Below are positions 1,763-29,614 of a stretch of 64,000 nucleotides of DNA, in pieces (the stretch's first letter is position 1; each line of letters starts with the position of its first letter). Origin of the DNA: Amycolatopsis tolypomycina (GTDB lineage Bacteria > Actinomycetota > Actinomycetes > Mycobacteriales > Pseudonocardiaceae); contig NZ_FNSO01000004.1 in assembly GCF_900105945.1 (NCBI RefSeq), positions 3,224,001 through 3,288,000 of the forward strand, in the 5' to 3' direction. The translations under genes and the position numbers were made by a program. The notes beneath the pieces are model-generated. The model saw nothing but the letters and a program-made list of their open reading frames with translations, did no database searches and was not told where the DNA came from.

Positions 1763-2554
1763 CTATCCGGCCCCGGCCTGTCGCGGCCGGACCATCAGGG
1801 CCTGCGCGCCGGTGGCCACCGGGCCGCCGGCGTCGTGCAGGATGCTCGTCGCGGTGCCGATGCCGTGCTTGCCGACGAGCGTGACCGCGTCGAGGCCGAT
1901 CCACTCGCCTTCGGGCACCCGCCGCAGGTGCACGGTGAGTTCGGAGTTGATGAACCACCACTTGCGCGGGTCGAGGTAGTTGGAGACGCCGTTGCCGGAG
2001 TCGGCGACGGTGAACAGCCGTTGCAGGCCGCTCGGCTCCTCGCCGTCGACCAGCGGGACGCGCTGGCGGGCCCACACCGCGGCCGGGCCCGGCACGTCCA
2101 TGCCGCCGCGCACCGCGCGCCATTCCATCGCGTCGAGGTAGCCGCCCTGCCAGCCGTCCGGCCACGGCGACTCGCCGACGCTGTCCGGCCCGGGCAGCAG
2201 GGGACCGGCGTCGGTGCCGGCTTCCGCCGTGTCCGACGTCGCGATGCGCCACGCCGACGCCCGCGCCACGACGCGCTCGGCGCTGGCCAGCTCGGCCTGC
2301 AGCAGCTCGACCGACCGGCCGGGGCGTTCGATCCGGGCCCGCGCGGTGAGCTCCGCGACCGGCGCCGGGCCGAGGATCTCGACGGTCACGCGCGCGAGTG
2401 CGGCCGGGTGCGCCGTTTCGACGGTTTCGAGGGCCCGGACCAGCAACGCCGACGGCGGGCCGAAGTGCTGGGCGTCCGGCGTCCACGGGCCGGCGGTGTG
2501 GGCGGTCGCGGAGAACCGGCCTTCGCCGAGCGGGACGTAGAAGGCGTCGGCCAT
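1763..2554 (-). CDS. TesB-like acyl-CoA thioesterase family protein
   Basis: A 263-residue protein with the look of a double hot-dog thioesterase: an N-terminal half with FGPPSALLVRALE and a C-terminal half with a KWWFINSELTVHL stretch, where TesB-like enzymes position acyl-CoA. It probably hydrolyses an acyl-CoA, but no catalytic residue can be assigned with confidence by eye. Its ATG overlaps the stop of the upstream nuclease gene by one base (TGATG), so the two are likely translationally coupled. A larger open frame extends upstream, but the coupled ATG is the natural start. Confidence 0.75.
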   Translation of the reverse strand: MADAFYVPLGEGRFSATAHTAGPWTPDAQHFGPPSALLVRALETVETAHPAALARVTVEILGPAPVAELTARARIERPGRSVELLQAELASAERVVARASAWRIATSDTAEAGTDAGPLLPGPDSVGESPWPDGWQGGYLDAMEWRAVRGGMDVPGPAAVWARQRVPLVDGEEPSGLQRLFTVADSGNGVSNYLDPRKWWFINSELTVHLRRVPEGEWIGLDAVTLVGKHGIGTATSILHDAGGPVATGAQALMVRPRQAGAG

Positions 2555-3453
2555 CAGTCGGCCCTGTCCAGGGGTGTCTCCTCGCCCGCGTCGGGCTCCG
2601 GCCAGCCGGGGTACGCGGGTGGGGTGCCGCCGTACTCCGGGCAGTGGGCCTGGTGGTCGCACCAGTTGCACAGTTTGCTCTTGTTGGGCCGGAAGTCGCC
2701 GGTTTTGCCCGCTTTGAGGATGGCCTGCCAGATGGCTTCCAGCGTGCGCTCGAAGCGCAGCAGCTCGGCCTCGTCGGGCGTGTAGGCCAGCGATTGGCCG
2801 TCGGTGAGGTACATGAGCTTCAGCTGGCGGGGGACGATCCCGCGCAGCCGCCACAGGACCACGGCGTAGAACTTCATCTGGAACATCGCCTTGGCCTCGC
2901 CGATCTCGCGCGGCGCGGCCCCGGTCTTGTAGTCGACGACCCGGATCTCGCCGGTCGGCGCGACGTCGAGGCGGTCGATGTAGCCGCGCAGCAGGACGCC
3001 GGAGCCGAGCTCGATCTCGACGTGCAGCTCGCAGGCCTCGGGTTCCAGGCGCCGCGGGTCTTCGAGTTCGAAGTAGGCGTCGAGGAGCTTTTCGGCCGAC
3101 CGCAGCCAGTCGGCGTGGTCTTCGGGTTTCTCGCCGTCGAACAGCTCGGTCCACTCCGGACGGTCGGCGGAGAGGTCGGTCCACGCCGGACCGAGCAGCT
3201 CGCGCGCCTGTGCGGGGACGCGTTCGGCGGCGGGGAGGGCGAAGAGCCGTTCGAGGACCGAGTGGACGAGCGTGCCGCGCAGCTGGGCCTTGGTCGGGAC
3301 CTCCGGCAGCCGGTCGACCGCGCGGAACCGGTAGAGCAACGGGCACTGCTTGAAGTCGCTGGCCCGTGACGGCGACAACGCGGGCCGCCGCCGCACTTCG
3401 GTGGCGACGGCGGCGGCTGGGGTGTCGGTGGTGACGGTGTCGGCGTCGGGCAT
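2554..3453 (-). CDS. RecB-family (Cas4-like) exonuclease
   Basis: A 299-residue PD-(D/E)XK nuclease. H64 (TLVHSVLE), D160 (YIDRLD), the DYK triad at 174-176 (VVDYKTG) and QMKFYA at 192-197 form the RecB/Cas4 nuclease core. C37, C262, C265 and C271 match the four-cysteine iron-sulphur arrangement of AddB/Cas4-type nucleases. It corresponds to the Rv2119 position in M. tuberculosis (from memory). The ATG lies six bases after TACGCT, so the mRNA is probably leaderless; the promoter resembles a PafBC site (separate entry). A role in DNA end processing or repair is inferred. Confidence 0.82.
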   Translation of the reverse strand: MPDADTVTTDTPAAAVATEVRRRPALSPSRASDFKQCPLLYRFRAVDRLPEVPTKAQLRGTLVHSVLERLFALPAAERVPAQARELLGPAWTDLSADRPEWTELFDGEKPEDHADWLRSAEKLLDAYFELEDPRRLEPEACELHVEIELGSGVLLRGYIDRLDVAPTGEIRVVDYKTGAAPREIGEAKAMFQMKFYAVVLWRLRGIVPRQLKLMYLTDGQSLAYTPDEAELLRFERTLEAIWQAILKAGKTGDFRPNKSKLCNWCDHQAHCPEYGGTPPAYPGWPEPDAGEETPLDRAD

Positions 3454-3459
3454 GGGCAG

Positions 3460-3482
3460 AGCGTAACGCCGGGGTCCGACAG
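3460..3482 (-). promoter_or_regulatory. Candidate PafBC-like leaderless promoter of the RecB-like nuclease
   Basis: On the minus strand the sequence reads CTGTCGGAC, eight bases, TACGCT, six bases, ATG. The mycobacterial PafBC-dependent promoter is TTGTCRNTG-N8-TANNNT. This site has the exact N8 spacing and a good -10, but differs from the consensus at the first base and at the TG ending the upstream element. Moderate match only. Confidence 0.45.
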
Positions 3483-7002: not shown

Positions 7003-7929
7003 TCACGCGCCGTCCGCCTTGACGTTGGACAGACACCAGAGCCCGGATTCCTTCTGCGCCGACATCGTGCCGACCTTGGTCTTGGTGCCGTCGGTGGCCG
7101 AGTAGCGGACGGTGGCCTTGTCGCCGGACTCCGCCGCCGTGCCGGTCAGCTTGACCGTGACGTTGGGGATGTCGCCCGTGGTGCCGTCGTGGACGCTGCG
7201 GCAGATCGTGTCGTCGAGCGCCTTCTCGTCACTGGCGTTGTAGGCCGTGATGGTCGCGTCGAACAGCTCCTGGGCGCTGGGCTTACCGCCGGGGGCCGGG
7301 CCGCCCGCGGGCTTGCTCGTCTTCGACGTCGGGCTGGTCGGCGTGGTGCTCTTGGGCTTCGGGGTGGACGCCTTGGGGGCCGTCGTCGGGGCCGGCGCCG
7401 AGCTGCTGGTCGCGGGCGGCGCGGCGGCCTGCTGGTCGTCACCCTGGTTGGCGAGGACCACCGCGGTCACCCCGCCGCCGACCAGGACGACCGCGGCGGC
7501 CGCGATGCCGACGATCAGGCCGGTCTTCTTCTTGGGCGGGGGCGCCTCGCCGAAACCGCCGCCGTAGGAGTCGTAGCCGCCGAAGTTCTGGGGCGGCTGG
7601 CCCCACTGGTCCTGCTGGCCGTACTGGGGGTAGCCCTGCTGGGGCTGAGGGCCCGTCTGCGGCTGGTAACCGCCCTGGCCGGACTGGTCGTACCCGCCCG
7701 GCTGCCCGTACTGCTGGGTGCCGTCATAGCCGCCGGGCCGGCCGTACTGCTGGGTGCCGTCGTAGGGGCCGGGCTGCCCGAACTGCTGCGTGCCGCCGTA
7801 GCCGGGCTGGGCCTGCGGGCCGCTCTGGGGGTAGCCGCCCTGCTGCGGCTGGCCGTACGGCCCGGGCTGCTGCCCGTAGCCGCCGGGCTGCTGGCCGTAG
7901 CCGCCCGGTTGCTGCGGCGGGTAGGTCAT
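7003..7929 (-). CDS. Gln/Gly/Pro-rich membrane protein with extracytoplasmic domain
   Basis: A 308-residue protein. Residues 1-130 are low-complexity repeats of the GGYGQQPG and [11 protein letters not shown] type, presumably cytoplasmic and disordered. After a basic PPKKKTG comes one membrane segment (about 138-160, [23 protein letters not shown]). A Ser/Thr/Pro-rich linker leads to an outer domain of about 95 residues ending [15 protein letters not shown]. The architecture is common in actinobacteria. The domain is related to that of the downstream gene. Function unknown. Confidence 0.75.
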
Positions 7930-8297
7930 GACGGGTTCCCCCTAGCGTTCTTCGAGTAGCGCCCGGCCGTCGCGGCCGGGTACAGCGTCGCCCGATGCTA
8001 GCCACCGGCCCGGCCCGCCGCGCGGTTAGGGCGGAACTGGCCGGAATTGCCCGGCTTGGGGGCCGCGGTTGGGGCCCCGGCGGCCGGGGTACTCCCGACG
8101 TGCTTGCTTCGTCCCGGCCCGGACGGACCCGCGACACACCGGCGCCACGGCACCGAAATGGCCGCTTGCGCTGCGGGAATGTCCGTGCTGGATGCGGCAG
8201 GCGAACCGCGACGCGCCGATCTTGTGATCCGGAAAGGCCTTTTCTTGTCGGTGATCGCCGGTACCGTGGAATGAAAAGCACTCCGAGGAGGTGCCCG
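7930..8297. other. 368-nt divergent gap before arc
   Basis: No convincing gene lies here; open frames on both strands lack recognisable features. It must hold the promoter of the minus-strand Gln-rich gene. It also holds the arc promoter at 8245-8267 and the arc ribosome site GAGGAG at 8285-8290. Confidence 0.6.
8245..8267 (+). promoter_or_regulatory. PafBC-type DNA-damage promoter of arc
   Basis: The sequence reads TTGTCGGTG (8245-8253), exactly eight bases, then TACCGT (8262-8267). It matches every specified position of the RecA-independent, PafBC-dependent promoter pattern TTGTCRNTG-N8-TANNNT known from mycobacteria. A start about seven bases downstream would give a leader of roughly 24 nt that includes the GAGGAG ribosome site of arc. 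PafB and PafC are encoded 19 kb downstream. Confidence 0.7.
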
Positions 8298-10100
8298 ATG
8301 CATCATGACCTTCCCGGAGGTCGGCGCGAGGAGGCCGACCCTTCAGCAACATCAGGAGCTGGGACGACGGCGGACGAGCAGGCTCGGCAGATCCGTTTTC
8401 TCGAGGAAGAAGTGGCGCTGCTGCGCCGCAAACTGACGGACTCGCCCCGGCAGAACCGCGTTCTCGAACAGCGGCTCGCCGAGGCCTCGGAAAGGGTGAG
8501 CCAGCTCACCGAACGCAACACCAAACTGGTCGAAACCCTGCGCGAAGCGCGAGGACAGCTCCTCGCCCTCCGCGAGGAGGTCGACCGGCTGGCCCAGCCA
8601 CCGTCCGGCTACGGCGTCTTCGTCGAGGCGTACGAGGACAACACGGTGGACGTCTTCACGGCCGGCCGGAAGATGCGGGTGTCGGTTTCGCCCGCGGTCG
8701 AGCTCTCGTCGCTGCGCCGCGGTCAGGCGCTGCGGCTCAACGAGGCGCTCACCGTGGTCGAGGCCGGCGGCTTCGAACGCACCGGCGAGGTCTGCGCGTT
8801 GCGTGAGGTGCTCGCCGCCGACGTCGAGGGCGGCAGCCTTCGCGCGCTGGTGGTCGGGCACGCGGACGAGGAGCGGGTGGTCCTGCTCTCCGACCTGCTG
8901 GCCGAGCAGCCGCTCAAGCCGGGCGACTCGCTGCTGGTCGACTCCAAGGCCGGCTACGCGTACGAGCGCGTGCCGAAGGCGGAGGTCGAGGACCTGGTGC
9001 TGGAGGAGGTGCCCGACGTCCGCTACGAGGACATCGGTGGCCTCACCCGGCAGATCGAGCAGATCAGGGACGCGGTCGAGCTGCCGTTCCTGCACGCCGA
9101 CCTGTACCAGGAGTACCAGCTGCGGCCGCCGAAGGGTGTCCTGCTCTACGGCCCGCCGGGCTGCGGCAAGACGCTCATCGCCAAGGCGGTGGCGAACTCG
9201 CTGGCCAAGAAGGTGGCGGCGGCGCGGGGCGAGAACGAGGACGGGAAGTCCTACTTCCTGAACATCAAGGGTCCCGAGCTGCTCAACAAGTTCGTCGGGG
9301 AGACCGAGCGGCACATCCGCCTGATCTTCCAGCGGGCGCGGGAGAAGGCCTCCGAGGGCACCCCGGTGATCGTGTTCTTCGACGAGATGGACTCGATCTT
9401 CCGGACCCGTGGGTCGGGCGTGTCGTCCGACGTCGAGACCACGATCGTGCCGCAGCTGCTGTCGGAGATCGACGGTGTCGAGGGCCTGGAGAACGTCATC
9501 GTCATCGGCGCCTCCAACCGCGAGGACATGATCGACCCGGCGATCCTGCGGCCGGGCCGGCTCGACGTCAAGATCAAGATCGAGCGTCCGGACGCCGAAG
9601 GCGCGAAGGACATCTTCTCCAAGTACCTGGCCGAAGGCCTGCCGATCCACGCCGACGACCTCGCCGAGTTCGGCGGCGACGCCAAGGCGACGTTCGACGC
9701 GATGATCCAGCACACCGTCGAGCGGATGTACGAGGAGAGCGACGAGAACCGGTTCCTCGAGGTGACCTACGCCAACGGGGACAAGGAAGTCCTGTACTTC
9801 CGCGACTTCAACTCGGGCGCGATGATCCAGAACATCGTGGACCGGGCGAAGAAGTCGGCGATCAAGTCGGTGCTGGAGACCAAGCAGCCGGGTCTCCGCG
9901 TGCAGCACCTGCTCGACGCGATCGTCGACGAGTTCGCGGAGAACGAGGACCTGCCCAACACCACCAACCCGGACGACTGGGCCCGGATCTCCGGCAAGAA
10001 GGGCGAGCGGATCGTCTACATCCGCACGCTCGTCACCGGCAAGAACCAGGACTCGGGGCGGGCGATCGACACCGCCACGAACACCGGTCAGTACCTGTAG
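8298..10100 (+). CDS. arc: Proteasome-associated AAA ATPase ARC/Mpa
   Basis: A 600-residue hexameric unfoldase that recognises pupylated proteins and feeds them into the 20S proteasome. A coiled coil spans about residues 27-100 and binds Pup; two OB folds follow (about 101-240). The AAA domain has Walker A GPPGCGKT at 285-292, Walker [11 protein letters not shown] near 355-364 and the arginine-finger region LRPGRLD. The C-terminus GQYL carries the penultimate Tyr that docks into the PrcA rings. ATG 8298 has GAGGAG seven bases upstream. The gene has its own PafBC-like promoter and is separated from dop by inserted genes. Confidence 0.96.
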
Positions 10101-10110
10101 TTGCGAAGCG

Positions 10111-10142
10111 CGATGGGCGGCTGCCGCGGCAGCCGCCCATCG
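10111..10142. terminator. Perfect 32-bp palindrome between arc and the DMT gene
   Basis: Sixteen-base arms (CGATGGGCGGCTGCCG and its complement) meet with no unpaired base, 10 nt after the arc stop and 6 nt before the end of the convergent gene. A bidirectional terminator is likely. Confidence 0.75.
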
Positions 10143-10148
10143 GCGTGT

Positions 10149-11066
10149 CTAGCTGCGGACGAGTTCGGGTTCGGTCTTGCGCCGCCGCAACCGTCCGTGG
10201 GCCGCGAGGATCCCCAGTACCACGAGCAGGGCCCCGGCCGGCTGGTTCCAGCTCACCGGTTCGCCCAGCACGAGCACCCCGAGCAGCACGCCCACCACCG
10301 GCGTCAGGTACGTCACCGCCGAGGCGTTGGCCGCACCCCAGGCGGCGATGATCCGGGTGTTCCAGGCGTAGGCGATGCCGGTGCCGAAGACGCCGAGCGC
10401 GATCATGCTCGCCACCACCGGCAGGTCGAGGCGCGCCGGCGTCGCCGCGACCGCCGGGGCCAGCAGGGTCAGCAGCACCGTCGCCGACGCCGTCTGGCCG
10501 AAGGCCACGACCACCGGGTCCGTCCCACGAGGTGAGACGAACCGGCGCAGGTACACGAAACACGCGCCGTAGCACGTCGTCGCGCCGAGGCAGGCGAGCT
10601 GGGCGGTCAGCTGGTGGGACACGTCGATGCCGTGCCACACGCCGACGATGGTGAGCACGCCGGCGAACCCGAGCAGCAGGCCGAGCACCCGCGGCGGGGT
10701 GAACCGTTCCGCCGGCAGCGCCGCGGCCGCCAGCAGCATCGTGACCAGCGGCGTCGTCGCGTTGAAGATACTGGCCAAACCGGACGAAATGTACTGTTCC
10801 GCCCACGAGAACAGCAGGAACGGCACCACGCACAGCAGCACCGACACGACCGCGAGGTGCCCCCACAGCACCGGATCGCGGGGGAGCGGCCGCCGGCGCG
10901 CCAGCAGGATGACGCCCAGCGCAAGGGCGCCCAGCGCGACGCGGGCGAGCGCGACCTGGCCGGGGGAGAGCCCGCCCAGGCCCACCTTGATGAACAGGAA
11001 ACTCGCACCCCACACGATCGCCAGCAGCGCGAACCGCACCGTGACCCCGAAATCCGTCCGTCGCAT
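10149..11066 (-). CDS. EamA/DMT-superfamily transporter
   Basis: A 305-residue inner-membrane protein with about ten hydrophobic helices in two EamA repeats (roughly residues 5-140 and 150-290). Conserved features include WGASFLFIKVGL near the N-terminus and TPVVGVLLGVLVLGEP near the end. Family members export amino acids or other small metabolites, but the substrate cannot be read from sequence. I chose ATG 11066; a TTG at 11078 would add four residues. A GGTATAGG-type dyad lies 59 nt upstream of the start. Confidence 0.85.
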   Translation of the reverse strand: MRRTDFGVTVRFALLAIVWGASFLFIKVGLGGLSPGQVALARVALGALALGVILLARRRPLPRDPVLWGHLAVVSVLLCVVPFLLFSWAEQYISSGLASIFNATTPLVTMLLAAAALPAERFTPPRVLGLLLGFAGVLTIVGVWHGIDVSHQLTAQLACLGATTCYGACFVYLRRFVSPRGTDPVVVAFGQTASATVLLTLLAPAVAATPARLDLPVVASMIALGVFGTGIAYAWNTRIIAAWGAANASAVTYLTPVVGVLLGVLVLGEPVSWNQPAGALLVVLGILAAHGRLRRRKTEPELVRS

Positions 11067-11124
11067 GGCCGCAGTCAATCCGCCGCACCGGCCGCGAAGC
11101 CAGTGCTTTTCGGACGCTGCGCCG

Positions 11125-12814: not shown

Positions 12815-14134
12815 TTCCTAAGTCAACCCTTCCACTGTGTTGATCTTGGTGGTGGTGTGGTGGATGGCAGGGTCGTAGCAGGTTCTGTCGCGCCAGCAGG
12901 CCCAGATGACGCGCAGCCAGGCGCGGGCCAGGATCCGCACCGCGTGGGGGTGGCGTTTGCCTCGGGAACGCGCGTTGTTGTAGATCGTGGCGGCCCAGTC
13001 GCTGTCGTGCCGGCTGTTGTCGGCGAAGGTCATCAGGGCTTGCCGGGCTCGGCGGTTGACCGCGTGCCGGAAGTTGACCTGGCGGTGTTTCCCGGATTCC
13101 TTGGTGACCGGTGCCGCACCGGTCTCGGCGGCCAGTTGCGCGCAGCCGTTGGCGCGTTCGAGCATGGGGCCGATCTCACCGATGACTTGACCGAGGTTGA
13201 CGGAGCCGATCCGGGGCAGTCCGGCGATCAGTTCGGCCCAGGGATGCGTCTTGACTGCCTCGGCGATGGCGGCATCCAGTTCGCGGATGGTGACACGCAG
13301 GGACCGCACCAGCTGCACTTGGACACCGACCAGCCGGGTGATCACAGTCCGGCCCAGCCGGGAGGCCGCCGCGGGGGCGGTGCGCAGCCGCTCGATCAGC
13401 GCACTGCCGGGTCGTTTGCCGGAGTAGCCGTGGCGTTTGCAGAACGCTTCCAGCCGGCCGGCGGTCAAGCGGGCCGCGTCCGCGGGCGTGGGGTAGCGGT
13501 CCAGGAAGGCCAGGGCGATGTCACTGTCCAGGCTTGCGAACACGGCTTTCCCGCCGGGCCAGTGCTCATCCAGCAGCGCAGCGAGCTGGTTGACCGCCGC
13601 GACGCGCGCTTCGACGTGGTCGGCGCGTTGCCGGGTCAGCGCTTGCAGCTCCAGTGTCTCGGGCAGCGTGGGTGTCAAGGTCCGCAGCTGGTGGCCGTCG
13701 GTGCGCAGGTAGTCCGCGAGTTTGAACGAGTCGCCGGGGTCGCTTTTGGCCCGGGCTGCGCCCCAGCGGGGCCGGACGGCGTTGAAGGCGTTGGGGTGTA
13801 TGGGAATCACGGGGTGCCCAGCAGCCAGCAGCCGGTCCACGACCAGTCCCCGGGTGGTCTCGATCGCTACTGGCAGCCCGGCCGGATCGCCGTGGCGGCG
13901 CAGCCTGGCCAGGGTGCCGGCAATTCCGGTTTCGGCGTGGGCCAGCGCCCATCGGTCGGTCCTCGTCCCGGCCTGGTCGATCACGGTCACATCGTGCGAG
14001 CCGCTGGCCCAGTCCCATCCCGCGAACACGCGCGCGGTGCTCCTTCTCTGACGGTGAAGGACCCGCTCGGTGGTGAGGACGCTGTCCGGAAGCTCATTAA
14101 TCGGCCCTCGGCCAGGTCGGGGCATGTTCCTAAG
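12815..14134 (-). mobile_element. IS110-family insertion sequence (ends approximate)
   Basis: One transposase gene with little sequence beyond its stop, as is usual for IS110. The octamer TTCCTAAG occurs at both 12815-12822 and 14127-14134 and may mark the ends, but an 8-base match is weak, and the element may extend further right, to about 14260. No terminal inverted repeats are visible, as expected for this family. It sits between the small gene at 12477 and an aldo/keto reductase. Confidence 0.6.
12818..14029 (-). CDS. IS110-family transposase (DEDD recombinase)
   Basis: A transposase of 403 residues from GTG 14029. Its RuvC-like domain shows the acidic residues in FAGWDWAS (start), VAIETT and KSDPGDSFKLAD; the C-terminal Tnp_20 domain has LPRIGSVNLGQVIGEIGP and TKESGKHRQVNFRHAVNRRARQAL. 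GTG 14029 is preceded, ten bases upstream, by AGAAGGAG on the minus strand and gives the usual family length; ATG 14125 would add 32 non-conserved residues. The reading frame is intact, so the element may be active. IS110 recombinases are guided by a bridge RNA encoded beside the gene. Confidence 0.88.
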   Translation of the reverse strand: MFAGWDWASGSHDVTVIDQAGTRTDRWALAHAETGIAGTLARLRRHGDPAGLPVAIETTRGLVVDRLLAAGHPVIPIHPNAFNAVRPRWGAARAKSDPGDSFKLADYLRTDGHQLRTLTPTLPETLELQALTRQRADHVEARVAAVNQLAALLDEHWPGGKAVFASLDSDIALAFLDRYPTPADAARLTAGRLEAFCKRHGYSGKRPGSALIERLRTAPAAASRLGRTVITRLVGVQVQLVRSLRVTIRELDAAIAEAVKTHPWAELIAGLPRIGSVNLGQVIGEIGPMLERANGCAQLAAETGAAPVTKESGKHRQVNFRHAVNRRARQALMTFADNSRHDSDWAATIYNNARSRGKRHPHAVRILARAWLRVIWACWRDRTCYDPAIHHTTTKINTVEGLT

Positions 14135-16424: not shown

Positions 16425-17927
16425 ATGCGGCGGATCATGGGAACCGAAGTCGAGTACGGCATCTCCGTGCCGGGCGACGCGACGGCGAACCCGGTACTCA
16501 CCTCGACCCAGGTCGTGCTGGCCTACGCGGCGGCGGCGGACATCCCGCGCGCCCGGCGGGCGCGGTGGGACTACGAGGTGGAGAGCCCGCTGCGGGACGC
16601 GCGCGGGTTCGACCTGACCGGCCCGGGCGGGCCGGGGCACGACCCCGACGTCGAGGACCTGGGCGCGGCGAACGTCATCCTGACCAACGGGGCGCGGCTG
16701 TACGTCGACCACGCGCACCCGGAGTACTCGGCGCCCGAGGTGACGAACGCGCGCGACGCGGTCATCTGGGACAAGGCGGGCGAGCGGGTGATGGAGGAGG
16801 CGGCGATGAAGGCCGCGTCCGTGCCGGGCCAGCCGCAGCTGCAGCTGTACAAGAACAACGTCGACGGCAAGGGCGCGAGCTACGGCACGCACGAGAACTA
16901 CCTGATGGCGCGGTCGACGCCGTTCACCGCGGTGATCGCCGGGCTGACGCCGTTCTTCGTGTCGCGGCAGGTCGTCACCGGCTCGGGCCGGGTCGGGATC
17001 GGCCAGCAGAGTGAAGAGGCCGGGTTCCAGCTCTCCCAGCGTGCGGACTACATCGAGGTCGAGGTCGGCCTGGAGACCACGCTCAAGCGCGGGATCATCA
17101 ACACCCGCGACGAGCCGCACGCGGACGCGGACAAGTACCGCAGGCTGCACGTCATCATCGGCGACGCGAACATGTCGGAGTACTCGACGTACCTGAAGGT
17201 CGGGACGACGGCGCTGGTGCTCGACCTGATCGAGTCGGGCATCCGGTTCGACGACCTGAAGCTGGACGAACCGGTCAAGGCGGTGCACCAGATCAGCCAC
17301 GACCCGACGCTGAAGAAGCAGGTCGCGCTGGCCAACGGCAAGAAGTACACCGGGCTGGACCTGCAGTTCGCCTACCACGAGATCGCTTCGCAGAACCTCG
17401 AGCGCACGGGCGCGGACGAGGCGTCGAAGGAGGTCCTGCGGGTCTGGGGCGAGGTGCTGGACGCGCTGGCGCGCGACCCGCAGGAGTGCGCCGACCGGCT
17501 GGACTGGCCGGCGAAGCTGCGGCTGCTGGAGGGCTACCGGCAGCGGGACAACCTGGCCTGGGGCGCGCCCCGGCTGCGGCTGGTCGACCTGCAGTATTCC
17601 GACGTCCGGCTGGCGAAGGGCCTGTACAACCGGCTGGTGACGCGCGGGTCGATGAAGCGGCTGGTGACCGAGGAAGAGGTGCAGGCCGCGGTGACGACGC
17701 CGCCGTCGGACACCCGGGCCTACTTCCGCGGCCGGGCGCTGGAGAAGTACGCGACCTCGATCGCGGCGGCTTCGTGGGATTCGGTCATCTTCGACGTGGG
17801 CAAGGAGTCGCTGGTGCGGATCCCGACCCTCGAGCCGCTGCGGGGGACGAAGGCGCACGTCGGCAAGTTGCTGGACAACGCGGCGACGGCGGAGGAGCTG
17901 GTGGAGGCGCTCACCGGTTCGGACTAG
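16425..17927 (+). CDS. dop: Pup deamidase/depupylase Dop
   Basis: A 500-residue carboxylate-amine ligase-like enzyme. It binds ATP through the N-terminal GTEVEYG (E8, E10), and D95 in [10 protein letters not shown] is the predicted nucleophile. The Dop-specific loop (about residues 64-80, [13 protein letters not shown]) distinguishes it from PafA. In most actinobacteria Dop converts the C-terminal Gln of Pup to Glu and also strips Pup from substrates. Because the Pup encoded next door already ends in Glu, depupylation and Pup recycling would be its main role here. It is followed by pup after 85 nt. Confidence 0.95.
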
Positions 17928-18012
17928 GCGGTTGGCACACCGATCGCGGCGTAGCCCCGAATGTCGGGGTCGCTGGGTAGGCTAGGAAACATCAGCCACA
18001 CCGGGAGGCGAG

Positions 18013-18207
18013 ATGGCCCAGGAAAAGATCGAAAAGCACGGCGGTGGTGACTCCGACGAGGAGTTCGAGGACACCGGCGCGGCGGGTCAGGAGCGGCGCG
18101 AGAAGCTCGGCGAGGACGTGGACACGATCCTCGACGAGATCGACGACGTGCTCGAGGAGAACGCCGAGGACTTCGTCCGGGCCTACGTCCAGAAGGGCGG
18201 CGAGTAG
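18013..18207 (+). CDS. pup: Prokaryotic ubiquitin-like protein Pup, ending Gly-Gly-Glu
   Basis: A 64-residue disordered acidic modifier that PafA attaches to lysines to mark proteins for the proteasome. The central helix-forming stretch (ILDEIDDVLEENAEDFV) binds the Arc coiled coil. The last codons are GGC GGC GAG TAG, so the C-terminus is GGE, not the GGQ of mycobacteria; it can be ligated without deamidation. ATG 18013 has GGAGG four bases upstream. A 111-nt gap with a 7-bp stem (18258-18264 with 18276-18282) separates it from prcB. Confidence 0.96.
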   Translation: MAQEKIEKHGGGDSDEEFEDTGAAGQERREKLGEDVDTILDEIDDVLEENAEDFVRAYVQKGGE

Positions 18208-18318: not shown

Positions 18319-19173
18319 ATGGACAACACCAGGGGCATCTCGGGTCCCGCCCTGCCTGCGGCGTACTTCTCCTCGGCGACGTCGTCGTTTTCGGACTTCC
18401 TGCGCGTGCAGGCGCCGGAGCTGCTGCCCGAGCGGCGCGTGGCGCCGGGCGCGGCCGAGCTGGGCATCCCGCACGGGACGACGATCGTCGCGTGCACGTT
18501 CGCCGGCGGTGTGCTGATCGCGGGTGACCGGCGGGCGACGTCGGGGAACCTGATCGCGAGCCGCGACATCGAGAAGGTGCACGTCACCGACGAGTACTCG
18601 GCGGTCGGCATCGCGGGCACGGCGGGGCTGGCCGTGGAGATGGTGCGGCTGTACGCGGTCGAGCTGGCGCACTACGAGAAGATCGAGGGTGTTTCGCTGT
18701 CGCTGGACGGCAAGACGAACAAGCTGGCCGGCATGGTCAAGGCCAACCTCGAGATGGCGATGGCCGGGCTGGCGGCGATCCCGTTGTTCGTGGGCTACGA
18801 CCTGGAGGCCGAGGACGCCAAGCACGCCGGCCGGATCGTGTCGTACGACGCCGCGGGCGGCCGCTACGAGGAGCACGGCGGCTACTCGAGCATCGGCTCG
18901 GGCTCCCTGTTCGCGAAGTCGGCGCTGAAGAAGCTGCACGACCCGGACGCCGACGTCGAGGGCGCGGTGCGGGTCGCGGTCGAGGCCCTGTACGACGCGG
19001 CGGACGACGACACGGCCTCGGGTGGCCCGGACCTGGTGCGCCGGATCTTCCCGAGCGTGGTGACGATCACGGCGGAGCGCGGCGCGGTCCAGCTGTCGGA
19101 GTCGGAGACCGCGGCGGTGGCCGAGGCCGTGGTGGCGGGCCGGATCGAGCGCCAGCAGCGCCGGCTGTCCTGA
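18319..19173 (+). CDS. prcB: Proteasome subunit beta PrcB
   Basis: The 284-residue catalytic subunit precursor of the 20S proteasome. A propeptide of about 53 residues is removed autocatalytically before Thr54 in [10 protein letters not shown], which becomes the N-terminal nucleophile. Supporting active-site residues appear as GDRRAT (Asp) and IEKVH (Lys), and the SGGPD segment near the end carries conserved residues. Fourteen copies form the two inner rings. No clear Shine-Dalgarno precedes ATG 18319. It is followed by prcA after 54 nt. Confidence 0.96.
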
Positions 19174-19227: not shown

Positions 19228-20022
19228 GTGACGATGCCGTTGTATGCCTCTCCCGAGCAGCTGATGCGGGAGCGTTCCGAGCTGGCGCGCAAGGGCATCG
19301 CGCGCGGCCGGAGCGTGGTGGTGCTGAAGTACTCGGGTGGCGTGCTGTTCGTGGCGGAGAACCCGTCGGCGACGTTGCACAAGGTTTCCGAGATCTACGA
19401 CCGCATCGGTTTCGCCGCGGTCGGGCGCTACAGCGAGTTCGAGAACCTGCGCGTGGCGGGCATCCGCCACGCGGACCTCAAGGGCTACCAGTACGACAGG
19501 CGTGACGTGAGCGCCCGCGCGCTGGCGAACGCGTACGCGGCGACGCTGGGCAGCATCTTCACCGAGCAGCTGAAGCCGTTCGAGGTGGAGGTGTGCGTCG
19601 CGGAGGTCGGCGCGAGCTCGGCGGAGGACCAGCTGTACCGCCTGACGTACGACGGTTCGATCTTCGACGAGCCGCAGTACGTGGTGATGGGCGGCCAGAA
19701 CGAGAAGATCGCGGCCAAGCTGAAGGAGACGTTCGAGGACGGCCTGGACCTCCAGGCGGCCCTGGGCGTGGCGGTGGCGGCCCTGAGGGCACCGAGCCAG
19801 CCGGCCCCGGCCACGTCATCGGGCTCGTCGTCGTCCTCGTCGGCGAGCGCGTCCTCGAACGGCAACGGCGACGCGGACCCGATCAAGCTGGAGGTGGCGG
19901 TCCTGGACCGCGACCGCCCCCGCCGAGCATTCCGCAGGCTGACGGGAGCAGCACTGGACACCCTGCTGCCGGTCCCGGACCCCCAGGGCGAGGAGCCCGA
20001 GAGCAAGCCGGAAGCGGAGTAG
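19228..20022 (+). CDS. prcA: Proteasome subunit alpha PrcA
   Basis: The 264-residue outer-ring subunit. The N-terminal [21 protein letters not shown] is the gate and assembly segment; [20 protein letters not shown] starts the proteasome fold. The C-terminal 70 residues are Ser/Ala-rich and low-complexity, a variable tail in this family. The pocket between alpha subunits receives the C-terminal QYL of Arc. GTG 19228 has CTGGAG nine bases upstream. A strong hairpin follows at 20033-20073. Confidence 0.96.
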
Positions 20023-21421: not shown

Positions 21422-22903
21422 TTACGGACGGTAGATCGTGAGGGCGCTGGGCCGCGACCGGAAGCGGAACCGGTTGCCGAGCGGGCCGACCTCGCCGTCG
21501 GTGGCGACGCGGCGGTTGCCGTCGAGCAGCTCGACCTCCAGCTCGGGCAGGTCGAGCTCCTGGTAGACGTGGCTGGCGGCGAGGCTGCGGGTGATCATCG
21601 CGAGCAGGAACCGGGCCCGCGAATAGGGCAGGTCGGCCCGCAGGTAGCGGATGTCGAGCAGGCCGGTGTCCAGTGCGGGCCGCCGGCTCGGGGCGAACCC
21701 CTTCGGCGCGTACGTGCCGTTGCCGACGAACAGCAGCCAGACCTGGGTGCGCTTGCCGTTGAGCCGGACGGTCAGCGGCTTGGCGTTCCGCAGCGTCCTG
21801 GCCAGCGCGATCGCCGCCGACGGCCACTTCGGGTGCTTTTCCTGCAGCTTCTCGCGCAGCCGCACCATCTCGGGGTAGCCGCCGAGGCTGGCGGTGTTGA
21901 CGAACCAGCGGTGGTCCGCGCCGCCGGGGCCGTCGATCCGGACCTCGCCCAGGTCGATGCCGACGGCGTTGCCGACCTCGGTCGCCGCGTCGGCGTCGGG
22001 CATGGCACGCACGCCGACGTCGCGGGCGAAGTGGTTGAGCGTGCCCGCCGGGATCAGGGCGAGCGGCAGGTCGTGCTCGGCGGCGATGGAGGCCACCGCG
22101 GCGACCGTGCCGTCCCCGCCCGCGACGCCCAGGGCGCGGACCGTGCCGCGGGCGTCGATCTCGGCCTCGAGCTGGGCGCGGAGGTCCTGCTTGGGGTCCG
22201 GGTAGATCAGCGCCGCCTTGGGCCAGGCGAAGCGGACGTCGTCGGTCGGGTCGTGGGTCGCCACGCCGGAGCTGGGGTTGACGACGACGAGCATGTCCTC
22301 GCCGTCGACCATCTCGGGCGCGTCGGCGTCGTGGGCCGTGCGGGCCGGGACGTCGTCGTGCAGCGGCCACCAGTGCCGGGTGGCCAGGCCGACGCCGACA
22401 CCGATGCTCAGCCCGACGCCGACGTCGGAGGGCCAGTGCACGCCGGTGTGGACCCGCGAGTAGGCCACGGCCAGCGCCAGCGGGGCGACGGCGAGCCCGG
22501 CGCGGGGCGACTCCATCGCCACGGCCGTGGCGAAGGCTGCCGCGGACGCCGAGTGCCCGGAGGGGAACGACGAGGACGTGGGCCGTTTCCGCAGGCGGCG
22601 GTGCATGGGCACCTCCTCCTCGGCGGGGCGGCGGCGGGGGAACAGCGGCTTGCCGACGAGGTTCGCGGCGGCGCTGGCCCCGGCGATCGCGACGACCCCG
22701 CGCAGCGCGGCGCGGCGGGTCTCGCCCTGGCGGGTGGCCAGCAGCGCGGCGACGCCCCACCACAGCCGGGACTTGTTCGCCGACCTCGACAGCGCCATCA
22801 GCGCGTCGTCGGCCCGGGAGGCGGGCAGCGAGGCGCTGCGCCGCATCAGGGCGCGGTCGGTCCGGCCGACCCGCCGGAAGGCCCGGATGAGCTGGTGTGA
22901 CAA
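21422..22903 (-). CDS. Fusion of PAP2 phosphatase and diacylglycerol kinase-like domains
   Basis: A 493-residue two-domain protein. Residues 70-185 form a PAP2 phosphatase with [20 protein letters not shown] and [13 protein letters not shown], which are the three conserved phosphatase blocks. From about residue 205 there is a lipid-kinase catalytic domain: [24 protein letters not shown] and [15 protein letters not shown]. The two activities act in opposite directions on lipid phosphates. Such fusions occur in actinobacteria, but the lipid is not established. The start is GTG or ATG near 22903; it is divergent from pafA across 143 nt. Confidence 0.85.
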
Positions 22904-23034
22904 GAGGTCCGCCTTCCGCGTGCCGTCAAGAGCCGTGCTCCAATCGTGCCGTATTCAGGGTGAATTCACCGTCTGTGGCGTACTGGGGGCGTGTCGACGC
23001 CCGAACGGCGCACCGTTGGCGGGGGTCCAGCGCC

Positions 23035-23040
23035 TACTCT
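23035..23040 (+). promoter_or_regulatory. -10 hexamer TACTCT, leaderless start of pafA
   Basis: TACTCT is followed by six bases (GGTGGA) and ATG 23047. The GGTGGA could act as a very short ribosome site only if transcription starts earlier. Confidence 0.5.
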
Positions 23041-23046
23041 GGTGGA

Positions 23047-24405
23047 ATGCAGCGGCGGATCTTTGGCATCGAGACCGAGTTCGGGGTCACGTGCACCTTC
23101 CACGGACAGCGCAGGCTCTCGCCCGACGAGGTGGCGCGGTACCTGTTCAGGCGGGTCGTGTCGTGGGGACGCTCCTCCAACGTGTTCCTGTCGAACGGCT
23201 CGCGGCTCTACCTCGACGTCGGCTCGCACCCCGAGTACGCGACGGCCGAGTGCGACGACCTGGTCCAGCTGGTCACGCACGACAAGGCCGGTGAGCGGAT
23301 CCTCGAGGACCTGCTGGTCGACGCCGAACGGCGGCTCGCCGACGAGGGCATCGGCGGCGACATCTTCCTGTTCAAGAACAACACCGACTCCGCGGGCAAC
23401 TCCTACGGCTGCCACGAGAACTACCTGGTGACGCGCGCGGGCGAGTTCTCCCGGATCGCGGACGTGCTCCTGCCGTTCCTGGTGACGCGCCAGCTCATCT
23501 GCGGGGCAGGCAAGGTGCTGCAGACCCCGCGCGGCGCGGTCTACTGCCTCTCCCAGCGTGCGGAACACATCTGGGAGGGCGTCTCCAGCGCCACGACCCG
23601 CTCGCGGCCGATCATCAACACGCGTGACGAGCCCCACGCCGACGCCGAGCGCTACCGGCGCCTGCACGTCATCGTGGGCGACTCGAACATGGCCGAGCCG
23701 ACGACCATGCTCAAGGTCGGCTCGGCGAACCTGGTGCTCGAGATGATCGAGGCCGGCGTCCAGTTCCGCGACTTCACCCTCGACAACCCGATCCGGGCGA
23801 TCCGCGAGATCAGCCACGACCTCACCGGCCGCCGCCAGGTGCGGCTGGCCGGCGGGCGCGAGGCCTCGGCGCTGGACATCCAGCGCGAGTACCACGCCCG
23901 GGCGCTCCAGCACATCAAGGACAACGGCACGACGGCGGCGAACGAGCGGGTCGTCGAGCTGTGGGGCCGCGCGCTGGACGCGGTCGAGCAGCAGGACTTC
24001 GGCAAGATCGACACCGAGATCGACTGGGCGATCAAGCACCGGCTGGTCGAGCGCTACCGGCACAAGCACGACCTCGACCTGTCCAGCCCGCGCATCGCCC
24101 AGCTCGACCTGGCCTACCACGACATCCGCCGCGGCCGGGGCATCTTCGACCTGCTGCAGCGCAAGGGCCTGGTCCGCCGGGTCACCGACGACGGCGAGAT
24201 CGAGGCGGCCAAGGACACCCCGCCGCAGACGACCCGGGCGAAGCTGCGCGGCGACTTCATCGCCGCCGCCCAGGCAGCGGGCCGCGACTTCACGGTCGAC
24301 TGGGTGCACCTGAAGCTCAACGACCAGGCCCAGCGCACGGTCCTGTGCAAGGACCCGTTCCGCTCGGTCGACGAGCGCGTGGAGCGCCTGATCAGCTCGC
24401 TCTAG
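23047..24405 (+). CDS. pafA: Pup-protein ligase PafA
   Basis: The 452-residue ligase that phosphorylates the C-terminal Glu of Pup with ATP and joins it to a substrate lysine. FGIETEFG (E9, E11) binds the ATP-magnesium; D57 in [12 protein letters not shown] is the predicted base; [18 protein letters not shown] and REISHD are shared with Dop. It lacks the long Dop loop after residue 37. Unusually for the tight dop-pup-prcBA array, it is separated from prcA by two minus-strand genes. The mRNA is likely leaderless. A GC-rich hairpin follows. Confidence 0.96.
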
Positions 24406-27653: not shown

Positions 27654-28637
27654 GTGTCCACCGCACGCGCCGAACGGCTGGTCAATCTGGTGCTGGCCCT
27701 GTTGTCCACGCGGCAGTACCTCACTGCCGAGAAGATCCGCGGCATCGTGCCCGGATACGGCGACGCGGCCAGCGACGACGCCTACTTCCGGATGTTCGAA
27801 CGGGACAAGACCGAGCTGCGCGAGCTCGGCATCCCCCTGGAGACCGGCCGCAACTCCGCGTTCGACGCCATCGAGGGCTACCGCATCGCCCGCCGCGACT
27901 ACGAGCTCGGCGAAATCGACCTCGCGCCCGACGAAGCCGCCGCCGTCGCGCTGGCGTCGCGGCTGTGGGACTCCCCGGAGCTCACCGGCCAGGCGCAGGG
28001 CGCGCTCGTGAAGCTGCGGGCCGCCGGGCTGGAGGTCGACGACCAGGCGCCCACCGTCGTCGAGCCGCGGGTGCGCGCCGAACCGGCGTTCGGGCCGCTG
28101 CTGGCCGCGGTCCAGAACGGCCAGGCCGTGCGCTTCGAGTACCGCCGCAGCGGCTCCCCGGAGCGGATCATGCGGACCCTCGAACCGTGGGGCGTGGTCT
28201 CGTGGCGGGCTCGCTGGTACGTCGTCGGGCACGACCGCGACCGCGGCGCCACCCGCTGTTTCCGGCTCTCCCGCGTCACCGGGCAGGTCCGCGCCGTCGG
28301 GAAGCCCGGCGAGGTGCAGCGACCCGAGGGTGTCAACCTGCTCAAGCTGGTCACCTCGACGGTCGAGAGCGAACCGGCCCCGGTCACCGTCGCGCGGGTG
28401 TGGGTCGCCGACGGCCGCGCGGCCGGGGTCCGCCGCCGCGGCACCGTGGTCGGCCGGGCCACCGTCGACGGCGAAGAGGGCGACCTCGTCGAGATCGGCC
28501 TGCTCTACCCGGAGTCGGCCGCCGACTGGATCAGCGCGCAGGGGCCCGACGTCGTCGTGCTCGAACCCGACGTGCTGGCCAAGAGCGTCCAGGACCGCCT
28601 CGAAGCCGTCGTCGCCCGGCAGGTGAGCGCGCGGTGA
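27654..28637 (+). CDS. pafB: DNA-damage-response regulator PafB (WYL domain)
   Basis: A 327-residue regulator. An N-terminal winged helix (about residues 1-65, RLVNLVLALLSTRQYLTAEKI) is followed by a WYL domain (about 145-240, with FEYRRSG, EPWGVV and RWYVVGHD) and a C-terminal extension. In mycobacteria PafB and PafC form a heterodimer that activates sigma-A promoters bearing TTGTCRNTG-N8-TANNNT after DNA damage. Its stop overlaps the pafC start by four bases, so the two are made together. Such a promoter lies before arc in this window. Confidence 0.94.
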   Translation: MSTARAERLVNLVLALLSTRQYLTAEKIRGIVPGYGDAASDDAYFRMFERDKTELRELGIPLETGRNSAFDAIEGYRIARRDYELGEIDLAPDEAAAVALASRLWDSPELTGQAQGALVKLRAAGLEVDDQAPTVVEPRVRAEPAFGPLLAAVQNGQAVRFEYRRSGSPERIMRTLEPWGVVSWRARWYVVGHDRDRGATRCFRLSRVTGQVRAVGKPGEVQRPEGVNLLKLVTSTVESEPAPVTVARVWVADGRAAGVRRRGTVVGRATVDGEEGDLVEIGLLYPESAADWISAQGPDVVVLEPDVLAKSVQDRLEAVVARQVSAR

Positions 28638-29614
28638 GCGGGTCCACCGACCGGATGCCGAGGCTGCTCGCGCTCGTGCCGTACCTGCTGGCGCGCCCGG
28701 GCGTGCGCATCGACGACGCGGCGCAGGATTTCGACGTTTCGCCGAAGCAGCTGCGCAAGGACCTCGAGCTGCTGTGGATGTGCGGGCTGCCCGGTTACGG
28801 CCCGGGCGACCTGATCGACCTGTCCTTCGAGGGCGACACGATCGTCGTCACGCACGACGCCGGGATGAACCGCCCGCTGCGGCTGACCGGCGGCGAGGCG
28901 ACCGCGCTGCTGGTGGCGCTGCGGGCGCTCGCCGAGACGCCGGGCGTGGTCGACGGCGACGCCGTCCGCCGCTCCATCGCCAAGATCGAGGCCGCCGCCG
29001 GGCAGGCCCAGCCGGCCGGCGTGGTCGTCGGCGGGGGAGTGCGGGAGGGCAAGAAGACCGCGCGGACCCGCGAGGAGGTCGCCCGGGCGCTGCAGCACGG
29101 GCGGGCGCTGCGGATCCGCTACTACACCGCCTCGAAGGACCAGATCACCGAGCGCACGGTCGATCCGATGCGGCTGCTGATCGTCCAGGCGGTCGGCTAC
29201 CTCGAGGCGTGGTGCCGCCGCGCCGAGGGCGTCCGGCTGTTCCGGCTCGACCGGATCGACGAGCTGGCGATCCTCGACGAGCCGTCGCGGCCGCCCGCGC
29301 ACGCCCATCCCACGGACATTTCCGAGGGCGTGTTCCGGGAACGGCCCGATCAGCGGGAGGCGGTCCTGGTCCTCGACCCGGACGCACGCTGGGTAGCCGA
29401 GTACTACCCGTGCGAGGAGCTCGACGAGCTCGACGGTGGCCGGCTGCGGATCCGGATGCGCTACGCCGACCAGTCGTGGATGGTGCGCCTGGTGCTGGGG
29501 CTGGGCGGGGAAGCGCTGGTGGAGAGCCCGGCGGACCTCGCGTCCGATGTCGGCCGCCGAGCCGCCGACGCCGTGGCCCGAGCCCGTCACCTTCCGTCAA
29601 CCTGCGACCACTAG
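28634..29614 (+). CDS. pafC: DNA-damage-response regulator PafC (WYL domain)
   Basis: The 326-residue partner of PafB. GTG 28634 lies in the GTGA overlap with the pafB stop. The N-terminal HTH covers about residues 8-60 (LLALVPYLLARPGVRIDDAA, then VSPKQLRKDLELL), and the WYL domain about 150-230 (IRYYTASKDQ, VQAVGYLEAWC, FRLDRI). The C-terminal domain follows. It acts with PafB on damage-inducible promoters, probably sensing single-stranded DNA through the WYL domain as recent work on the family suggests. Confidence 0.94.
   Translation: MSGSTDRMPRLLALVPYLLARPGVRIDDAAQDFDVSPKQLRKDLELLWMCGLPGYGPGDLIDLSFEGDTIVVTHDAGMNRPLRLTGGEATALLVALRALAETPGVVDGDAVRRSIAKIEAAAGQAQPAGVVVGGGVREGKKTARTREEVARALQHGRALRIRYYTASKDQITERTVDPMRLLIVQAVGYLEAWCRRAEGVRLFRLDRIDELAILDEPSRPPAHAHPTDISEGVFRERPDQREAVLVLDPDARWVAEYYPCEELDELDGGRLRIRMRYADQSWMVRLVLGLGGEALVESPADLASDVGRRAADAVARARHLPSTCDH

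Follow-up and report, generated by a model that had tools for sequence, protein, structure and literature searches.

The PafBC-dependent DNA-damage promoters of mycobacteria carry the sequence TTGTCRNTG-N8-TANNNT. PafBC, together with single-stranded DNA, joins RNA polymerase at promoters by sigma adaptation, and its complex with the polymerase at promoter DNA forms only with single-stranded DNA (PMC11804915, excerpt). In Mycobacterium smegmatis, deletion of pafBC lowers RecA, and the levels of Mpa, Dop, PrcA and PrcB are unchanged without pafBC; the excerpted text names a damaging agent for neither observation, reports that PafBC affected none of the proteasome components under the conditions used, and calls a more direct link between PafBC and the proteasome still to be scrutinised (PMC5656591). 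The Pup-proteasome system of this species returns RecA to its starting level after stress, 26 proteins of the regulon are pupylated, and the association of pafBC with the proteasome is explained in the same review through the degradation of regulon members (PMC8223512, excerpt). RecA-NDp promoters also precede recA and the UV-inducible SCO6735 in Streptomyces coelicolor (PMC5087735, excerpt), and an initial search in Streptomyces venezuelae reportedly failed to detect conservation of the M. smegmatis PafBC motif (PMC9380542, excerpt). A link from a PafBC damage promoter to the proteasome is not shown by work in mycobacteria, where PafBC is best studied, and in the literature that we searched, no PafBC box upstream of arc or pup is described for any non-mycobacterial species.

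We analysed a stretch of 64,000 nucleotides from Amycolatopsis tolypomycina (hereafter the window; Table 1), in which an earlier note had proposed that a full-consensus promoter of this kind drives arc. The motif is indeed there: TTGTCGGTGATCGCCGGTACCGT, at 8245-8267 on the forward strand, reads TTGTCGGTG-N8-TACCGT with zero mismatches at the fixed positions, and it is the sole match in the 64 kb at zero or one mismatch. Shuffled windows gave means of 0.00 matches at zero mismatches and 0.10 at one, and the exact motif did not occur in any of 100 shuffles. The site has the sequence features of a PafBC promoter, with a box that matches both TTGTCRNTG and TGTCGG and a spacing to TANNNT of 8 nt from the former and 10 nt from the latter. 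The last base of the -10 hexamer lies 30 nt upstream of the arc ATG, with a GAGGAGG ribosome-binding site in between, and no TTGACA-type promoter (-35) was found from 7900 to 10300 at the search threshold. The arc product shares 99 % identity with its Amycolatopsis rifamycinica counterpart. Both neighbouring genes (7003-7929 and 10149-11078) lie on the minus strand, which makes arc a predicted single-gene unit. An SOS-like palindrome was considered and rejected, as the generic form GAACNNNNGTTC has three matches in the window (0.71 expected), none of them near arc; a dyad in the arc spacer (CGGTGATCRCCG), inspected by eye, shows substitutions without clear compensation.

The same locus encodes PafB and PafC, as had been claimed. 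The N-terminal HTH of PafB received no Pfam call, yet it lies inside the stretch aligned to PDB 7p5x, and both proteins also match chains of 9fnd; we take the two entries to be PafBC with RNA polymerase.

Table 1. Positions of the predicted promoter elements and of the genes discussed in the text, numbered from the first letter of the window.
Feature	Position	Strand	Remarks
RecB/AddB-like PD-(D/E)XK nuclease	2554-3453	-	PF12705; TIGR02786 match far below cut-off; predicted target of the 3460-3482 box
Relaxed PafBC box CTGTCGGAC-CCCGGCGT-TACGCT	3460-3482	-	6 nt before ATG, predicted leaderless
-26 type PafBC box TTGTCGGTG	8245-8253	+	exact match, conservation
arc spacer ATCGCCGG	8254-8261	+	near-invariant in family; in 7/11 named mycobacterial loci
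-10 hexamer TACCGT of predicted arc promoter	8262-8267	+	predicted transcription start ~8273-8276
arc (mpa), proteasome-associated ATPase	8298-10100	+	TIGR03689, E 3e-255
IS110-type transposase	12818-14125	-	between arc and dop; PF01548, PF02371
dop	16425-17927	+	TIGR03688; no exact box upstream in window
Relaxed PafBC box ATGTCGGGG-TCGCTGGG-TAGGCT	17961-17983	+	29 nt before pup (TGTCRG-N10-TANNNT)
pup	18013-18207	+	TIGR03687
prcB, 20S beta subunit	18319-19173	+	TIGR03690
prcA, 20S alpha subunit	19228-20022	+	TIGR03691
pafA, Pup ligase	22897-24405	+	TIGR03686; no exact box upstream in window
pafB, WYL-domain regulator	27654-28637	+	WYL, WCX; PDB 7p5x chain AY, E 2e-87
pafC	28634-29614	+	HTH_PafC, WYL, WCX; PDB 7p5x chain AX (PafC), E 7e-81

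As controls we used the promoters of uvrB and radA, at 30 loci each out of 46 family genomes, of which 27 and 28 were analysed; the second genome of our own genus was dropped from each set, as were two uvrB loci (G028, where the contig is cut, and G012, with its box 60 nt away) and one radA locus with no box (G004). At these promoters the NTGTCGG box and its spacing to TANNNT are largely kept, while positions 8-9 and the spacer vary. Pairwise identity at box positions 3-7 is 0.96 for uvrB and 0.97 for radA, values favoured by taking the best match near the start at each locus, and that of the spacer, which this choice does not favour, is 0.51 (27 sites) and 0.43 (28 sites). The relaxed form NTGTCRG-N10-TANNNT, which is the one reported in mycobacteria (PMC8151990, excerpt), is matched by 27/27 uvrB and 24/28 radA sites, and the strict TTGTCRNTG form by only 7 of the 27 and 5 of the 28.

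Of 148 family genomes that contain arc, we read the upstream region of the gene in 90, representing all 46 genera, a genus being scored as positive if any genome read has the box. The strict box is found in 30 of these genomes (17 genera) and the relaxed one in 60 (28 genera), so that 29 of the 46 genera carry one form or the other; the PafBC spacing together with TGTCRG is retained in 28. Even better kept is the core GATCGCCGGTACCGT, of which 42 genera have at least 12 of the 15 positions; the spacer ATCGCCGG occurs unaltered in 32. Where the intact box is missing (17 of the 46 genera), the core is still present in 13. Pairwise identity of the arc spacer reaches 0.92, as against 0.51 at uvrB and 0.43 at radA, whereas at box positions 3-7 it is 0.85, below the 0.96 and 0.97 of the controls. 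The position immediately preceding the box carries 0.09 bit of information, positions 1 and 2 carry 0.90 and 0.99 bit, and the values for positions 3-23 range from 1.29 to 2.00; the one prominent base farther upstream is a C at -5 (1.31 bit, 37/42). Box position 1 is T or A at arc in 41 of 42 genera, while C is commonest there at uvrB and radA; more broadly, this position is mostly A or T at both arc and pup and mostly C or T at the two repair genes.

This conservation implies that the arc site is under selection, though of another kind than the uvrB and radA promoters. A kept box with a free spacer, which is a diagnostic rather than a defining feature of PafBC promoters, is not what we see at arc. 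The proposal that a PafBC promoter drives arc is partly supported: the box is real, well placed and kept in 29 of 46 genera, but its manner of evolution departs from that of the uvrB and radA promoters. Because the frozen spacer and the T or A at position 1 differ from those promoters, the arc site probably overlaps with a constitutive core or with the site of a second factor.

Outside the family, the exact box was found in 0 of 48 usable genomes (49 read of the 127 with arc, less L280, whose contig begins near the gene so that its positions were misindexed). Among 80 of the 594 named arc loci, the box is present in 29 of 41 Pseudonocardiaceae and in 2/2 Actinopolysporaceae, and absent from the Mycobacteriaceae (0/11), Nocardiaceae (0/15), Gordoniaceae (0/1), Nakamurellaceae (0/1) and three unplaced loci (0/3). 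Relaxed matches in 4 of 6 named Geodermatophilaceae were not counted, because TATAGATT makes their -10 ambiguous and because these sites share a spacer of their own. AATCGCCGGTAGCGT is retained at arc in three genomes of family f2, which belong to the 48, and in most named mycobacteria. This distribution suggests that the core promoter is old and that the Pseudonocardiaceae added a PafBC box to it, although the box may instead have been lost elsewhere. A second regulon sharing the frozen element was also considered and was rejected, since exact GTGATCGCCGGTANNNT occurs once per genome, at arc, in 5/5 genomes; at one mismatch there are 3-14 further matches per genome, which in our own genome partly belong to a dispersed repeat.

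Another relaxed box lies before pup. The earlier note had placed the unfoldase, and not obviously the 20S genes, under damage control; this restriction is not supported, as the box ATGTCGGGG-N8-TAGGCT precedes pup-prcB-prcA and occurs in more families than the arc box, so the 20S genes are probably to be included as targets. The stretch between dop and pup was readable in 45 of 46 family genomes and in 20 of 29 loci from other families (29 of the 89 non-family genomes with dop); at the remaining loci no pup was recognised after dop. Among the 45 family genomes 19 have an exact box, at a distance of 28-54 nt from pup, as do 10 of the 20 others, at 27-86 nt; nine more family genomes have it with one mismatch at the same distance. 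The non-family boxes come from families f18 (6/7), f17 (2/2) and f2 (2/6, both genus g48), with none in the other five readable genomes (f3, f7, f9, f14). In f18, whose Pup begins MATKDTGGGQQKAT and which presumably corresponds to Streptomyces, six genomes (L373, L375, L378, L380, L381, L382) have a conserved ATGTCRGAC-N8-TAGGGT before pup, in spite of the reported negative initial search for the PafBC motif in S. venezuelae (PMC9380542). Named loci with a readable pup carry the box in 3 of 13 cases (an Actinophytocola, a Pseudonocardiales bin and a Geodermatophilus); the ten without it are two mycobacteria, five rhodococci, two Blastococcus and one unplaced bin.

First-order resampling of the dop-pup stretches gave mean counts of 0.024 for the family and 0.006 for the others (largest 2 and 1), a summed chance of about 0.03. 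The box was found in 0/65 cases on the reverse strand, 0 times inside the anchor genes (360,268 bases, both strands counted) and rarely upstream of dop (2/59). The latter two are the family genomes L338 and L348, where the relaxed box ends 6-7 nt short of dop, and dop may join the PafBC regulon in single lineages. In the 31 family sequences that deviate from the pup box at no more than one position, a selection that favours the box, identity is 0.94 at positions 3-7 and 0.63 in the spacer, in both cases between the values for arc and for uvrB and radA. On a dop tree of 50 genomes the pup box requires 12 changes.

In the 44 genera readable at both sites, 17 have both boxes, 15 neither, 11 only that at arc and one only that at pup (Fisher p 4e-4); tolerating a single mismatch in the pup box weakens the association, the counts becoming 24, 9, 4 and 7 (p 0.006). 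Co-evolution of the two boxes was nevertheless rejected, since the dop tree offers only 2-4 independent pairs, too few despite the raw p of 4e-4, and the co-occurrence is not significant once relatedness is considered. It may reflect shared descent.

In the window the relaxed box NTGTCRG-N10-TANNNT has three matches (arc, the RecB/AddB-like nuclease and pup) against 0.17 expected. Since the motif is common in the genome, three boxes in 64 kb are unsurprising on their own, and our case rests on conservation. The predicted nuclease target lies about 5 kb upstream of arc. A search of the complete genome (10.36 Mb) returned 39 exact motifs and 0 of the reversed pattern. All 39 read TTGTCGGTG; 53 more sites have another base at position 1, in 47 cases C. 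Directly behind exact sites, judging from automatic gene starts that are unreliable and were taken as hints only, are uvrB and radA (above family cut-offs), a uvrA fragment, and PhoH-like and DnaN-like genes scoring below family cut-offs; many of the genes so placed are not repair genes. recA has TTGTCGGTC-N8-TAGCGT about 95 nt upstream of its domain match. At uvrB, radA and several other sites (including L025, L036, L016, L028, L031, L034 and L038) a start codon follows the -10 by 6-7 nt, and these mRNAs are therefore probably leaderless.

By eye, ten of the 39 exact sites (L001, L002, L004, L005, L013, L017, L018, L022, L029 and L030) belong to one dispersed intergenic repeat, in which the motif is followed directly by ggaa..cggggggcgccccc; the count of 39 consequently overstates the number of gene promoters. 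This element has a PafBC-like promoter before a GC-rich palindrome and is possibly a mobile or REP-like repeat spreading damage promoters. Two further exact sites, L007 and L012, each lie some 235 nt in front of a transposase-like gene (IS110 type by eye), an arrangement that would couple transposition to DNA damage.

We consider it fairly probable, on comparative grounds, that arc has an old core promoter combined with a PafBC box and that pup-prcB-prcA is a second predicted PafBC target. The frozen arc spacer counts against this reading, because PafBC alone does not explain it, as do the 12 changes of the pup box on the dop tree and its presence in only 3 of 13 named loci. In the most serious alternative, a constitutive promoter or some other regulator's operator spans roughly GTCGGTGATCGCCGGTACCGT at arc, its likeness to a PafBC site being secondary or left over and PafBC doing little. 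The spacer and -10 are better conserved than the box, the core persists in the 13 genera without an intact box, the spacer occurs without the box in seven of 11 named mycobacteria, and the restriction of the exact element to arc in 5/5 genomes indicates that it is not a shared regulon motif. Against this alternative, 28 of 46 genera retain TGTCRG at the PafBC spacing, conservation drops just upstream of box position 1, save for the C at -5, and the same genera tend to have the pup box. We regard it as the less likely reading.

That PafBC binds the arc and pup sites and merely sets their basal level, with no response to damage, appears improbable: it would fit the lowered RecA of the M. smegmatis pafBC deletion, for which the excerpt names no damaging agent (PMC5656591), but it sits badly with the need of the PafBC-polymerase complex for single-stranded DNA (PMC11804915, excerpt). 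A chance match is hardly credible at all. Although arc is a single site in a motif-rich genome, its position and sequence are fixed across dozens of genera and 100 shuffles of the window give none, so that it is in practice refuted.

If arc is indeed an old core promoter with a PafBC box, the core ATCGCCGG-TACCGT would provide basal sigma-A transcription, as its conservation suggests, and PafBC would add induction. Bound to RNA polymerase, PafBC would likely raise transcription of arc and of pup-prcB-prcA, whose box may evolve more like those of repair genes, upon a damage signal in the form of single-stranded DNA. The products of all four proteasome genes (arc, pup, prcB and prcA) would then rise along with uvrB, radA and recA, and the cell would likely make more proteasome machinery under DNA damage. 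Since RecA and further proteins of the PafBC regulon are reportedly removed by the Pup-proteasome in M. smegmatis, such co-induction would form a self-limiting loop, with repair proteins and the system that degrades them under one regulator. A bolder version, to which we give somewhat less than even credence, extends this to an incoherent feed-forward timer in many Actinomycetes: in response to one damage signal PafBC would switch on repair genes and simultaneously the machinery for the subsequent removal of their products, namely Pup and the 20S core, joined in Pseudonocardiaceae by the unfoldase. Of the two boxes, that at pup would then be the widespread part of the wiring, the arc box an addition in Pseudonocardiaceae, and mycobacteria would have lost the wiring or never had it. 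If true, direct transcriptional control of pup-prcBA and arc by PafBC in non-mycobacterial species would be a simple reason for the shared neighbourhood.

The predicted arc promoter resembles the mycobacterial RecA-NDp promoters (recA, uvrA) in its -26 box, in the 8-nt spacer after TTGTCRNTG and in its TANNNT -10; as in those promoters no -35 was found, and the same regulators are encoded nearby. It differs from the RecA-NDp promoters of repair genes in its downstream gene, which encodes a proteasome component, and in its frozen spacer. The two proteasome promoters, arc and pup, also stand apart in their preference for A or T at position 1 and in their predicted leaders of about 20-24 nt, whereas uvrB and radA look leaderless here. 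With mycobacterial mpa promoters the arc site shares the spacer ATCGCCGG, which is joined there to TAGCGT or TAGCTT in the seven of 11 named loci; it differs from them in the exact PafBC box, found before mpa in 0/11 named loci and before pup in 0/2. In genus g47 the exact pup box occurs in 0/4 genomes, two of the four having it with one mismatch. If mycobacteria are without these boxes, their unchanged proteasome levels are what one would expect. As in M. smegmatis, where the Pup-proteasome removes regulon proteins, the same regulator and the same degradation system lie in one locus; but while the link in that species is the degradation of regulon members, the arrow predicted here is reversed, running from PafBC to the degradation genes.
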